The notes under the pieces are model-generated. The model did not search any database and was not told the origin of the DNA. It saw only the letters and a program-made list of their open reading frames with translations. Position numbers and translations under genes: made by a program. From an uncultured bacterium (GTDB lineage Bacteria > Patescibacteriota > Minisyncoccia > UBA6257 > GWB1-50-10): a stretch of DNA of 54,009 nucleotides. Of this stretch, positions 2,495-18,642 are shown one piece after another; within the stretch, counting starts at the first letter, position 1; each line of letters opens with the position of its first letter. Location: positions 1 to 54,009 of the forward strand of contig CAINEW010000028.1 in the NCBI GenBank assembly GCA_903847915.1. The letters are read 5' to 3'.

Positions 2495-2543
2495 GTGAAT
2501 TGAAAAATATAGGAAAAATGTGTATTTTGAGAGGTACAGACCC

Positions 2544-2702
2544 ATGAATAGCCATATCAGAAATTTTGTAATTATCGCGCATATTGATCGTCGTCCCTCA
2601 ACGAATTCGGGACTCCCTCACAACCTCTCGGTTTTGAGTAATTTCCTACACGGGAAAACTTTCCTTTTCCCGATCCCTTTGCTTAATCAATATGCACGAT
2701 AA
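2544..2702 (+). CDS. 52-codon leader ORF: truncated copy of the LepA N-terminus fused to a repeat core
   Basis: MNSHIRNFVIIAHIDR versus LepA MHDNIRNFVIIAHIDH; GAGAGG upstream of ATG; stop overlaps the lepA start by 11 nt. Confidence 0.5.
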   Translation: MNSHIRNFVIIAHIDRRPSTNSGLPHNLSVLSNFLHGKTFLFPIPLLNQYAR

Positions 2703-2703
2703 T
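2571..2703. repeat. Terminal fold-back element A (lepA 5' end)
   Basis: Inverted arms ATTATCGCGCATATTGATCG (2571-2590) and AATCAATATGCACGATAAT (2685-2703) around a ~94-nt core whose reverse complement matches elements at 5071-5196 and 18456-18594. Confidence 0.75.
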
Positions 2704-4536
2704 ATAAGGAATTTTGTAATTATTGCACACATTGATCATGGCAAGAGCACTTTAGCCGATCGGTTTTTGGAAACGACGGGAACGATTGAGACGCGTAAAA
2801 TGCACGCGCAATATTTGGATCAGCTTGATTTAGAACAAGAGCGAGGGATTACTATCAAAATGGCCCCTGTCAGAATGACTTGGAAGTCATCGCGGATAAG
2901 AGCGGATCAAAACGCGCAAGTTGAATATGTATTCAACTTGATAGATACGCCGGGACATAGTGATTTTTCATATGAGGTTTCACGTTCGCTTGCCGCGGTT
3001 GAAGGAGCAATTTTATTGGTGGATGCGACCCAAGGGATTCAAGCGCAGACATTAGCGAATTTTCGTGCGGCACAAGCGATGGGATTAACGATCATCGGCG
3101 CGATTAACAAAATTGATTTGTTTCCGGAACGAGAGAATGATCCGCGTGTCCAGACGGCACAACAAGAGCTTGCAGAATTGTTGCATTGCGACATAAAAGA
3201 TATTTCATTTGTATCGGGAAAGTCGGGAGAAGGGGTAGAAGCGTTGCTTGATGTGGTAATTGAACGGATTCCTCCTCCGCGTTCTTTTGCGACACGTAGT
3301 GCCTGTGAAGGACGCGCGCTTATTTTTGATTCTTTTTATGACGATCATAAAGGCGTGATTGCGTCGGTGCGTGTGGTTGAGGGGTCAATTCTCACATCTC
3401 CTCATGCGCATCTCATTGCGACCGATACTAATTTAGGCATAAAAGAAATTGGTTATTTTATGCCGAAATTAAAACCAAAAGATGGCGCGCTTTTGGAAGG
3501 TGAAATCGGGTATGTTGCGACGGGCGTGCGCGACACCTCAAAAATAAAAATTGGTGATACAGTGTTAATTTTACCGAATGGACATTCATCTCTTAACCTT
3601 AATTCATTGATACTTCCGGGGTATAAAGAACCGCGCCCTGTTGTCTTTGTTTCTTTTTATCCCGAAGAAAATGATGAATTTGAATTATTAGAAAAAGGAT
3701 TGCAAAAATTGCGCTTGAATGATTCGGCACTTTCTATTGAACCAGATCAAAATGAGGTGTTGGGGCGGGGATTTAAGGTGGGATTTTTAGGGCGACTCCA
3801 TTTTGAAATTACAAGCGAACGGTTGAAACGAGAATTTGCGATTCGTACCGTGAACACCTTTCCTTCGGTGTGTTATAAACTTCACACCAAAGACGGATGG
3901 AGTGAAATTGTGCGTCCTGAAGAAATGCCCCAGGATTATATTGAATTGTTAGAACCGATGATTGCGATCGAAATTTTAGTGCCGTCCACATCTCTTTCGC
4001 CGGTGCTCGCGTTACAAAAAATATTTAGAATGGAGAACGTAGAGACACATTCGGTCGGTGATCGTGTGCGGGTCACGGCGATTATGCCTCTTGTGGAACT
4101 TGTGAGCGACTTTGACGATAATTTGAAATCGGCAACCAAAGGATTTGCGTCATTTAGTTATGAATTGCATGATTATGTACATACAGATGCCGTGCGCGTG
4201 GATATTCTTGTTGCAGGAGATATTATTCCTGGGTTAAGTCGATTTATCCCAAAAGCATCATTGGAACGCGAGGCGCGTACGATGGTGGAACGGCTCAAGA
4301 TACTTCTTCCCCGTCAACAATTTGCGCAATCTATTCAAGCGAGTGCGGGAGGAAGCATTATTGCACGTGATGATGTATCAGCTTTAAAAAAGGACGTGAC
4401 AGGGTATCTCTATGGAGGTGATCGGACACGTAAAATGAAACTTTGGAAAAAACAACAGCGAGGCAAAAAGCGCTTGAAGAGTCGTGCCGAGGGTAAAATT
4501 TCTCCGGAGGTGTTTAAAGAACTTCTCAAAAAGTAG
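2692..4536 (+). CDS. lepA: Elongation factor 4 (LepA)
   Basis: GTPase motifs AHIDHGKST, DTPGH, NKID; full-length LepA ending in the typical basic C-terminus. Confidence 0.96.
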   Translation: MHDNIRNFVIIAHIDHGKSTLADRFLETTGTIETRKMHAQYLDQLDLEQERGITIKMAPVRMTWKSSRIRADQNAQVEYVFNLIDTPGHSDFSYEVSRSLAAVEGAILLVDATQGIQAQTLANFRAAQAMGLTIIGAINKIDLFPERENDPRVQTAQQELAELLHCDIKDISFVSGKSGEGVEALLDVVIERIPPPRSFATRSACEGRALIFDSFYDDHKGVIASVRVVEGSILTSPHAHLIATDTNLGIKEIGYFMPKLKPKDGALLEGEIGYVATGVRDTSKIKIGDTVLILPNGHSSLNLNSLILPGYKEPRPVVFVSFYPEENDEFELLEKGLQKLRLNDSALSIEPDQNEVLGRGFKVGFLGRLHFEITSERLKREFAIRTVNTFPSVCYKLHTKDGWSEIVRPEEMPQDYIELLEPMIAIEILVPSTSLSPVLALQKIFRMENVETHSVGDRVRVTAIMPLVELVSDFDDNLKSATKGFASFSYELHDYVHTDAVRVDILVAGDIIPGLSRFIPKASLEREARTMVERLKILLPRQQFAQSIQASAGGSIIARDDVSALKKDVTGYLYGGDRTRKMKLWKKQQRGKKRLKSRAEGKISPEVFKELLKK

Positions 4537-4866: not shown

Positions 4867-4873
4867 TTTTAAT

Positions 4874-4945
4874 ATATAATTTGCGGGTATAATACAGTGT
4901 CCCGCCTTCTCCATCAGTAGACGGATTCGGCGAGGCAAGGTACTA
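4874..4945. repeat. Terminal element F: truncated copy of tRNA-Gly 5' end plus CCGCC-type hairpin core
   Basis: ATATAATTTGCGGGTATAATACAGTG (4874-4899) matches 23/26 nt of the tRNA-Gly 5' region (4987-5012), then CCGCCTTCTCCATCAGTAGACGGATTCGGCG. Confidence 0.6.
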
Positions 4946-4995
4946 TTTTGATAGTTTAATGAAATGTGTTTGGTTTGTGAACTAAAATATAATTT

Positions 4996-5069
4996 GCGAG
5001 TGTAGTACAGTGGTAGTACGCTAGCTTCCCAAGCTAGATACAAGGGTTCAATTCCCTTCACTCGCACCA
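4996..5069 (+). tRNA. tRNA-Gly (anticodon CCC), CCA encoded
   Basis: Acceptor GCGAGTG/CACTCGC, anticodon stem CTAGC-TTCCCAA-GCTAG, T-loop TTCAATT, terminal ACCA. Confidence 0.95.
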
Positions 5070-5070
5070 A

Positions 5071-5196
5071 AAAAGGGAATCGAACAAGCAAAGGGGTCGG
5101 GAAAAGGAGAGTTTTCCCGTGGCGGAAATACTAAAACCGATGGGTTTTAGGGAGTGAGCTGATGCGAACGACGTTCACTTCCCTTCACTCGCACCA
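5071..5196. repeat. Terminal fold-back element B (tRNA-Gly 3' end)
   Basis: Inverted arm AAGGGAATCGAAC, core with hairpins GGGAAAA..TTTTCCC and AAAACC..GGTTTT, then a 24-nt direct copy of the tRNA 3' end (23/24 identical). Confidence 0.8.
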
Positions 5197-5237
5197 AATT
5201 AACTAATAACAAAGAGATTATGGTATACTTAAGTCCA

Positions 5238-5446: not shown

Positions 5447-8400
5447 ATGGACGTTATTCCTGATAACACGAAAGAAAAAGAAGGTGGTAAAACTTCGGAG
5501 GCAATTATAAGAGAGAAATTACACGCTTCTTTGGATGTTGCTGAAATAGAATCAGCAACTGTTGTATTAGAAGAGTTAGGGCAAACTCTTGCTTTGTTTC
5601 TTACCGAAAAAGAAGAGAACGTCTCTCATAATGACATTGAACATATGAAGGGTGTGGTTCAAAAGATGGATGAAGCACTTACTATTCTTAATCAAATTCC
5701 CGCTTTCCAATTTCAAAAACTTGAGCCCGTACTTCAAGAAAAAATCCATCCATTTTTTTCATTTGATACAACTCTTCTTTCTCAAGCAGAAGTAAAAATT
5801 ACTGAAAATATTTCTCGTGAGGGTGTTCAAAAAGTAGAAAATGCAGGAGGGAGCGTTGATCAAATTCAACAAGCAAAAGATGCGGGGGAAGTGCTTACTC
5901 AAGGTGTTCAAGAGGCAAAAAAAGAATTTGAAAGTGAAAATAATCTATTTCAAGAATCAATAGAGGAGACAAAAGTTAAAATAGAGGAAAGAAGTAAAGA
6001 AATTGCAACGAAGAAAGAAGAAATAGAAAGATTAGAAAAAGAAGTTGCCTCTACAACTGGTTTGGATAAAACACAAAAAGAGACAACTCTTGAACTTGTT
6101 AAGAGTAGTTTATTCGCGTTGGAATCTTCTCTTCTCGTTTCTGAAGGTAAACTTAGAGCATTTGGAGAAATTACACAGGGATTAGGAGAGAAATCAGATC
6201 AATCTCAAGAAGTTAAAAAAGAATCGATAGAGATTCCTGAGTCAAAGGTTTTCCCGTCTGAATTTATAGAAAGTAAAGTTAGATCTTTGCTTGTATCTAA
6301 TGAAAACATTAAAGAGGTTAATAATCTTGAGGTAAAAGGCTCTGCAAATGAAATCACATTAAATGTAAGAGTGGTGGGGCCTTTAAGATCGAATATTGGT
6401 ATACAGGCGATTCTTGAAAGTAAAGAGGGGAGTATAGGGGTAAAAAACTATAATATTGATGCTAGTCGAATGATAAAAGGGAAAGTGGAGAGTTTGATGG
6501 CGTCAAAATTAAATGAAATTTCAGTATTATTAAAATCTTATATTGAGGAAGAAGAAAATAAGAAGATTGATAAGATAGAAATTATAAATGGTGAACTTGT
6601 TGTCACATTTAAACCACAGCCCTTAAAGGAAAGTGGCGAGAAAATACAACCCACGGGAGCTGTACCTACCTTACAGGAGCAAATTACTGAAAATCTTGAT
6701 GCGCAACTAAGCCCTGAACAATTCCGTAATCAAAGACGAGAGGAATATGTCAAAAAGTATAAAGATTGGAAAGGCGTTTCAAAAGGGATGTTGGGAAGAG
6801 AGATTTTTGCAGAAGAGGCAGCGAAACGATCGTATGATGCTTACAATCAAGCGAATAAAGAATATATGATGAAGACGTATGGAGATGCAAAAGCAGAGAT
6901 TGAAACAAGATTAGTAGGTAATCAGGAAGCAATTGACGCAGAGCTCGCTGTGTTGAATGGACGACTCCATGCACAATTTATTGCTGATGAAGAATTAAAA
7001 CTTAATCAAATGAAAGTGGATGAGTGGCCACCGAAGGAAAAGGGACGACTTATGAAGTGTCTTGAAGTGGTGGGGAAAATTCCAAAACCTGTGCGGTGGG
7101 TATTGGGTGCTGGTATTGTTACTGCCACCGCGGTTACTTTTGGCAGTGTGGGAGTTGCTGGTGCAGGGATGTTCGCTCTTTCAAAAGTTATTCGCTCAGC
7201 GACGGGTGCGGGTCTTGCTGCTTTTACTGATAAACTCTTTGCTTTTGGAATTAAAAAATGGAAAAAAGATAAAGAGGAAAAATTAAATAAAATACAAGGA
7301 GGATTTTCATTAGATAATTATGATACTGAACGTGAGCAGTGGCATGATTTTCAAGAAGAAATAAGAAAACAAGAAAAATGGTTTGGTATTGAACGACTTT
7401 TGACGAATATTGTTGTTGCGGGCGCTGGCTCGTTTATGGTAGGACCTCATATTGATTCGTGGATTAACGGCGCTGATGCAACAGACATTACACAAGCAGG
7501 GGGTGGTGATCGTACAGAAACAATTAATAAAACAAAAGAGGCACTAAAAATTGCGAAAGGACACGCCAACGATCCTAATTTAATGAAACACATACAAGGT
7601 ACTGCGCAATTAGGAGAACAAGAAATAGAGCCTAATACATCCGGTCAATTTCCTGACGATACCCTTGGTGTGAATCTTAATAAAACCATTGAGCAATTTG
7701 GAGGAACAAAAGCACTTGAAGAATTTGACCGTATGAAAGGAGAAATTGATGGATTAGACAAAAATCTTGATGATTATATTAAAGGGGTTCCTGGATCAAA
7801 GGAAGTGTTAGAGAAGGCAGTGATTGCTCATCCAGATATTGTGAATCGTTATCCTGAAACTATTGGAAAAATATTTGGTAATTATATGAATACGGGTGAA
7901 GCGTTTCAGATTCATGGCATAGATCATATTAATAACCTTGATTTATTTAATGCAAAAATTACGGGAGTGCCAGATACTAAACTTCTTTCTCCGAGTGAAA
8001 TAATAGAAATCACTCAAAGCTCTCGCCCTTCTTCCGCAGACATCTTGAAAATGGTTGCGGAGCATCCTGGTTATCTTGAACAGTCAGCGCCATTAAGAGA
8101 GGCATTAAGGACAATTTCTAAAGATGCATTAGAAAATACTTTAAAAAATACTACTGTTTTCGGTGATATTTTTGGACATGGGAGTGAGTTTTCTGAACAA
8201 CTCACACAACACACTGGTCATCTTGCGGAATCGTTTGGTCTTCCTCCTCACCAAGCGCATGTGTTTGTTGAATTAATGGCAGATGGAAAAGAGATGACTA
8301 AAAAGGCATTTGAAAACAATCCCTATCTTTTTGATAGAGATACAGGATTTTTAAATCTTGAAGGTATTGAAGAAAAAGTAAAAGGATTCAAAAATGTTCT

Positions 8401-18329: not shown

Positions 18330-18413
18330 GCGCGGGTGGCGAAACTGGCAGACGCACTACCTTGAGGTGGTAGCGCCCGCAAGGGCTTGCAGGTTCAAAT
18401 CCTGTCCCGCGCA
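18330..18413 (+). tRNA. tRNA-Leu (anticodon GAG), CCA not fully encoded
   Basis: Acceptor GCGCGGG/CCCGCGC, anticodon loop TTGAGGT, long variable arm, T-arm AGGTTCAAATCCT; 3' flank reads A-CAA. Confidence 0.95.
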
Positions 18414-18419
18414 CAATAT

Positions 18420-18455: not shown

Positions 18456-18594
18456 CGCGTGGAGAGGATTTGAACGGAGGGGTGGGTCGGAGGGGAAACG
18501 GACGTGTCCCATCCGTGTAGGAAATAACTCAAAACCGAGGGTTGTGAGGGAGCGAGTGAATACAAGCGACGTTCAATTCCTCTCCCGCGCACCA
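18456..18594. repeat. Terminal fold-back element C (tRNA-Leu 3' end)
   Basis: Inverted arm CGCGTGGAGAGGATTTGAAC, core sharing GTGTAGGAAATAACTCAAAACCGAGGGTTGTGAGGGAG with element A, direct tRNA-Leu 3'-end copy at 18571-18594 (21/24). Confidence 0.8.
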
Positions 18595-18642
18595 AATTAA
18601 CTTATAACGAATAACTGATAACTATTAACAAGAAAAAAATAA

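Follow-up and report, generated by a model that had tools for sequence, protein, structure and literature searches.

An extra lepA start beside a gene-less insertion, one of a family found at gene ends in Patescibacteria

The window analysed here, a 54,009-nucleotide stretch of DNA from an uncultured patescibacterium, contains two 5' ends of lepA, the upstream of which is probably the footprint of a small gene-less integrative element of Patescibacteria, inserted within the first 16 codons of the gene. This insertion belongs to a family with a common anatomy that recurs at the ends of tRNA and protein-coding genes, and at nearly all of the 5' ends counted a leader reading frame ends close to, or overlaps, the new start codon. 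From the arrangement and divergence of the duplicated ends we infer that the elements move horizontally together with a gene end and integrate by recombination at the duplicated end. They probably represent a new family of gene-less integrative mini-elements that is likely to be mobile; nothing similar, and in particular no comparable repeat of CPR/Patescibacteria, was found in the papers searched.

Intact lepA (positions 2692-4536, plus strand), encoding elongation factor 4, starts with MHDNIRNFVIIAHIDHGK and is translated into 614 amino acids with the Pfam domains GTP_EFTU and LepA_C. A second, truncated and diverged lepA 5' end upstream of it, reported in an earlier sequence-only reading, is real: positions 2554-2589 are a direct repeat of 2702-2737 with 5 mismatches in 36 nt (86% identity), and in the shared peptide IRNFVIIAHID a codon comparison revealed 5 changed codons, each of them synonymous. 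The displaced end as a whole (2544-2589, plus strand; translation MNSHIRNFVIIAHID) begins at ATG 2544, the putative original start codon, which is preceded at a distance of 9 nt by the Shine-Dalgarno-like GAGAGG (2529-2534, plus strand). The same reading had this end running into repeat sequence, which was borne out, since a repeat family member lies between the two ends. Its core occupies positions 2590-2685 in minus orientation (covariance model R1 match at 2607-2693 on the minus strand, 63 bits) and is an 86% inverted match to positions 5079-5129. Between the core and the working copy (2702-2737, plus strand) lies an inverted target arm (2686-2703, minus orientation), previously overlooked, which is the reverse complement of 2571-2588 at 17 of 18 nt and holds the present lepA ATG and codons 1-4; it is closer to the displaced end than to the working one, while the reverse is true of most loci. 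A 52-codon leader reading frame crosses the element (2544-2702, plus strand), its stop codon at 2700-2702 giving an 11-nt overlap with the lepA start. A chance origin of the duplicate is ruled out, and misassembly of the contig is unlikely because the same kind of insertion occurs at lepA in other assemblies (genomes G030 and G035, with remnants in G021 and G024).

Two further copies in the window, at 5071-5198 and 18456-18596, had not been noticed before; both are oriented opposite to the one at lepA and follow tRNA genes identified by ARAGORN and Rfam. Behind tRNA-Gly(CCC) (4996-5069, plus strand) there are an inverted arm (5071-5085), a core (5086-5172; R1 match 5077-5161, 87.9 bits) and a displaced tRNA 3' end of 26 nt (5173-5198) with 96% identity to 5046-5071, all on the plus strand (locus L002). 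The third element (locus L004), likewise on the plus strand, follows tRNA-Leu(GAG) (18330-18414, plus strand) and comprises an inverted arm (18456-18475), a core (18476-18570; R1 match 18467-18559, 48.7 bits) and a displaced repeat of the gene end (18571-18596). Throughout the genome (G000; 624 kb in 29 contigs) the covariance model found 12 matches at E<=1e-5, all located at gene ends, namely those of 10 tRNA genes, the 5' end of lepA and the 3' end of rpsI, and every one of the 12 lies between a working end and its displaced copy. Separately, the tRNA-Gly gene is preceded at 4870-4940 by a diverged repeat of its own 5' end and upstream region (4870-4899, 87% identity to 4983-5012), possibly another displaced end.

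The elements have a uniform order: the working gene end (T), an inverted arm that is the reverse complement of part of the target, the core, and the displaced end (T'). At tRNA genes T extends from the T-loop to the 3' end and often includes the terminator. The insert is about 150 bp long and gene-less, with duplications of 15 to more than 60 bp, and the target gene keeps its function, since a complete end is present in every case. The core, of about 100 bp, consists of GGGAAAGGGGTCGG, stem P2, CCGTGGCGGAA, stem P3 and a terminal ..GCGAC. Both P2 and P3 form nearly perfect stems in a small alignment, and any function of theirs is putative; the low number of G-T pairs in P2 (2 of 445) suggests that the symmetry is kept at the DNA level. 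The arm varies with the local target, with a mean alignment score at tRNA loci of 15.4 against its own target and 8.0 against other targets, and its own target is strictly the best match in 25 of 36 tRNA loci; outside tRNA loci the match of the arm is often close to background. Arm and T form perfect snap-back hairpins of 30 bp in L094, 20 bp in L105 and 22 bp in L095. The first 6-8 nt of T' are often altered, GTTCGATTCC being replaced by GTTCGCTTCC or GTGAGATTCC, and T' therefore pairs imperfectly with the arm.

In a DNA search of the GTDB family, 31 of 43 genomes, representing 17 of 25 genera, contained the core, and in a phylum-wide sample a covariance model search with stricter filters detected it in 22 of 291 genomes, which represent 21 of 250 genera. 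In GTDB contigs 61 matches to the core pattern were found, almost all labelled as Parcubacteria lineages or unnamed bacteria, and 37 of them have a tRNA gene on the same strand ending less than 130 bp upstream, with 17 isotypes represented. The other targets are EF-G, LepA, uL11 and rnhA at 5' ends, and uL11, rpmG, rpsI, pgk and a CtpA/B-like peptidase (S41) at 3' ends. In two genera rplK, encoding uL11, is flanked by elements at both its 5' and 3' ends (L095, 6771-6855 on the minus and 7313-7427 on the plus strand; L071, 3004-3088 on the minus and 3555-3670 on the plus strand). At a tRNA-Lys locus of genome G028 (L138, G028:C3), also identified in G029 (L131, G029:C10), the arm and displaced end are retained and the core is lost. 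No pair of empty and filled sites was found in close strains, congeners being too diverged for an empty-site search, and neither an excised form of the element nor a mobilising enzyme was found.

Comparison of lepA loci from 30 members of the GTDB family gave a divided answer to whether sister genomes share the upstream copy: most have a single lepA start, while the copy is present in two and persists as a remnant in two others. In G030 (L271) an element occupies the same lepA site, a stop codon lies within the displaced copy and the leader overlap is lost; an element is also present at lepA in G035 (L022). In G021 and G024 (L269 and L277) the displaced copy is kept, with another palindrome inside it. 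The element-bearing lepA genes of L271 and L022 belong to other genera; insertion at lepA has recurred and does not go back to the ancestor of the GTDB family. Several other features were observed. The lepA of G035 (L022:2-1474) encodes a PDDEXK_3 (GxxExxY) domain in frame within the LepA GTPase domain, and unusually long lepA reading frames are also present in G010, G023 and G041. Nested palindromes (ACCCCGTTAGAGAA... and another of about 60 bp, in both orientations) occur in displaced ends and cores, upstream of lepA in L269 and L277 and in the cores of L300 and L302.

According to the explanation we favour, the mobile unit would comprise a copy of the target gene end, a short spacer (often a terminator hairpin), the reverse complement of that end and the conserved core of about 100 bp with its two stems. 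On reaching another chromosome it would integrate into the corresponding gene end, at the position that matches its own copy; the gene body would then be joined to one copy of the end and the other copy pushed to the far side of the core. At lepA the displaced segment 2544-2589 would then retain the original ribosome site and start, and the present start, ATG 2692, would lie inside the inverted arm.

The divergence of the two ends bears directly on this explanation. In ten coding loci the changed codons comprise 67 synonymous and 17 non-synonymous ones. At the 3' end of pgk the copies differ at 13 of 60 nt; of the 20 codons compared, 12 carry synonymous changes and none a non-synonymous one, although the displaced copy, being located beyond the stop codon, is under no selection as part of the protein. 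The displaced 3' end of rpmG, also beyond the stop codon, has a ratio of 4:2, and uL11 in L095 shows 14 synonymous and no non-synonymous changes over 19 codons. On the strength of the synonymous bias at pgk and uL11, divergence within intact genes is most likely: the two ends probably diverged in orthologues of different lineages and were joined later by recombination. The identity of the rnhA copies in L077 over 56 bp is what would be expected of a closely related donor and recipient.

Transposition with target-site duplication would account for the same layout if, for example, a staggered cut with long 3' overhangs were followed by snap-back fill-in, creating the inverted arm, by insertion of the core and by later divergence of the copies. 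The inverted arm and the displaced copy both adjoin the core at the same target point, the perfect hairpins of 20-30 bp in L094, L105 and L095 fit a snap-back step, and the identity at rnhA is consistent with such an origin. However, the copies would be identical at birth, and the differences at pgk, with no amino-acid change, and at uL11 are hard to reach by unconstrained drift, which leaves this course of events unlikely.

An old duplication of the lepA 5' end within the genome, with both copies under coding constraint, was proposed in the sequence-only reading and is improbable. The ratio of 5 synonymous to 0 non-synonymous changes and an open upstream reading frame with a ribosome site agree with it, but the same core and displaced gene ends occur at dozens of other genes, the upstream copy is absent from most relatives, and displaced 3' ends past stop codons (pgk 12:0, rpmG 4:2) have an equal synonymous bias, which undercuts the argument for constraint after separation. 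The view that the duplication is not recent also falls, since the ends probably diverged as orthologues before being joined, the second copy being the target that an inserted element displaced.

The possibility that the element is an att end or satellite of integrative elements encoding large serine recombinases (LSRs) was also considered and appears very improbable. LSR genes are common in the GTDB family and end on tRNA genes, and LSR cargo lies between the tRNA and the core in L162 and L207 and adjoins the core in L165. Against this, L162, L207 and L068 each have part of a second tRNA tail ahead of the inverted arm, which contradicts the first suggestion of an LSR element as the autonomous form and points to a later, separate entry of the cargo at the tRNA 3' end. 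Moreover, LSRs are absent from G000 despite its 12 elements, elements are absent from G008 despite its 6 LSRs, and no core lies within 1.5 kb of 30 LSR genes; no LSR gene was found inside the same integration unit. A role as a structured regulatory RNA, or as a ribozyme, at gene ends is about as improbable; the conserved hairpins and conserved single-stranded stretches could speak for it, but the core has no Rfam match at the gathering threshold, G-T pairs are nearly absent from P2, and the core is antisense to lepA and lies behind tRNA terminators.

A scan of the window with Rfam returned only three tRNAs and no group I or II intron or known RNA family. Elsewhere, LSR elements at tRNA 3' ends (L162:5382-17290, L207:7169-10205, L174-L203) have the C-terminus of the recombinase read antisense through the tRNA tail; in L165 (3923-5632) a gene for a serine recombinase continues into the inverted arm and core, which would fit the use of the inverted tRNA tail as a target by an LSR element; and in L068 (about 2400-2540) the tRNA before the cargo array seems to hold a group I intron.

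Other candidate mobilisers were rejected. A RAYT-like Y1 transposase co-occurs weakly with the element (18 of 31 element-bearing versus 3-4 of 12 element-free genomes), and no significant core match was found at 20 Y1 loci; the flanks of the single-copy gene of G000 (G000:C14, L279:1303-2010) are likewise free of the element. Tyrosine recombinases are mostly represented by one XerC/D-like copy per genome and are absent from some element-rich genomes, with no match to PF00589 in the element-bearing G009, G011 and G022. For reverse transcriptases, G000 and many other element-bearing genomes yielded no match, in G000 none above the family cut-off. We tentatively offer the possibility that the units move as folded single-stranded DNA, in which pairing of the arm with the carried gene end could create a double-stranded att site mismatched near the exchange point. 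One recombinase might then serve any carried end, and donated ends and leader-coupled translation might sustain the essential genes.

Judging from the reading frames, the upstream lepA copy could well serve as a translated leader. In eight of nine 5'-end insertions counted the leader frame ends within -20 to +11 nt of the new start (+11, +8, +4, -5, -8, -12, -15 and -20 nt), the exception being one decayed locus at -135 nt. The antisense core frame used at most 5'-end loci is also the one most often open in the element family (36 of 60), so the openness of the leaders is partly a property of the core, to which survival of insertions in an open frame may add. Translational coupling from leader to lepA is the natural reading of this arrangement: initiation probably takes place at 2544, the ribosomes then translating all 52 leader codons across the element, terminating at 2702 and starting again at 2692. 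Leader-coupled translation is predicted for lepA, EF-G and uL11.

The favoured explanation accounts for an apparently constrained duplication of a gene start as the footprint of an insertion, and provides a case in which the exchange of gene ends among diverged species with reduced genomes can be tested. The annotation of tRNA tails and gene starts is affected as well.

The element differs from several known classes of small repeats. MITEs are recognised by fixed terminal inverted repeats and a short target duplication, whereas here the arms vary with the target and the duplications span 15 to more than 60 bp. REP and REPIN elements are short palindromic repeats accompanied by RAYT transposases; the present elements resemble them in being short and palindromic and in the presence of a RAYT-like Y1 gene in G000, but the RAYT genes here lack a flanking element, the insertions are not intergenic and the target ends are duplicated. 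Rickettsia palindromic elements (see PMC5656822, PMC2996958) are small palindromes tolerated in essential genes of reduced genomes, a situation similar to the one described here. Unlike them, the present element is not translated in frame within the protein; its target gene has a duplicated end and starts anew. Integron attC sites recombine as folded single strands (PMC6393395, PMC4792948), and pairing of the arm with the displaced end could likewise make a target-like site double-stranded, imperfect near the exchange point. However, the element as described includes neither an integron integrase nor a cassette array, its arms follow the local gene and it has a three-hairpin core; compared with the attC GTT/AAC core site at the level of sequence, GTT is present at tRNA T-loops and not at lepA, uL11 or rnhA. 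Genomic islands in tRNA genes integrate through tyrosine integrases (Islander, PMC4383910), with phage Ms6 as an example of T-loop integration (PMC1762012). Shared with them are a regenerated target with a displaced fragment, a crossover region in the T-loop and conserved targets, while the element, of about 100-200 bp, has no integrase or cargo, combines one core family with many targets and carries an inverted copy of the target. It is thus like tRNA-targeted islands in regenerating its target and displacing a fragment, without the integrase that defines them (PMC4383910).
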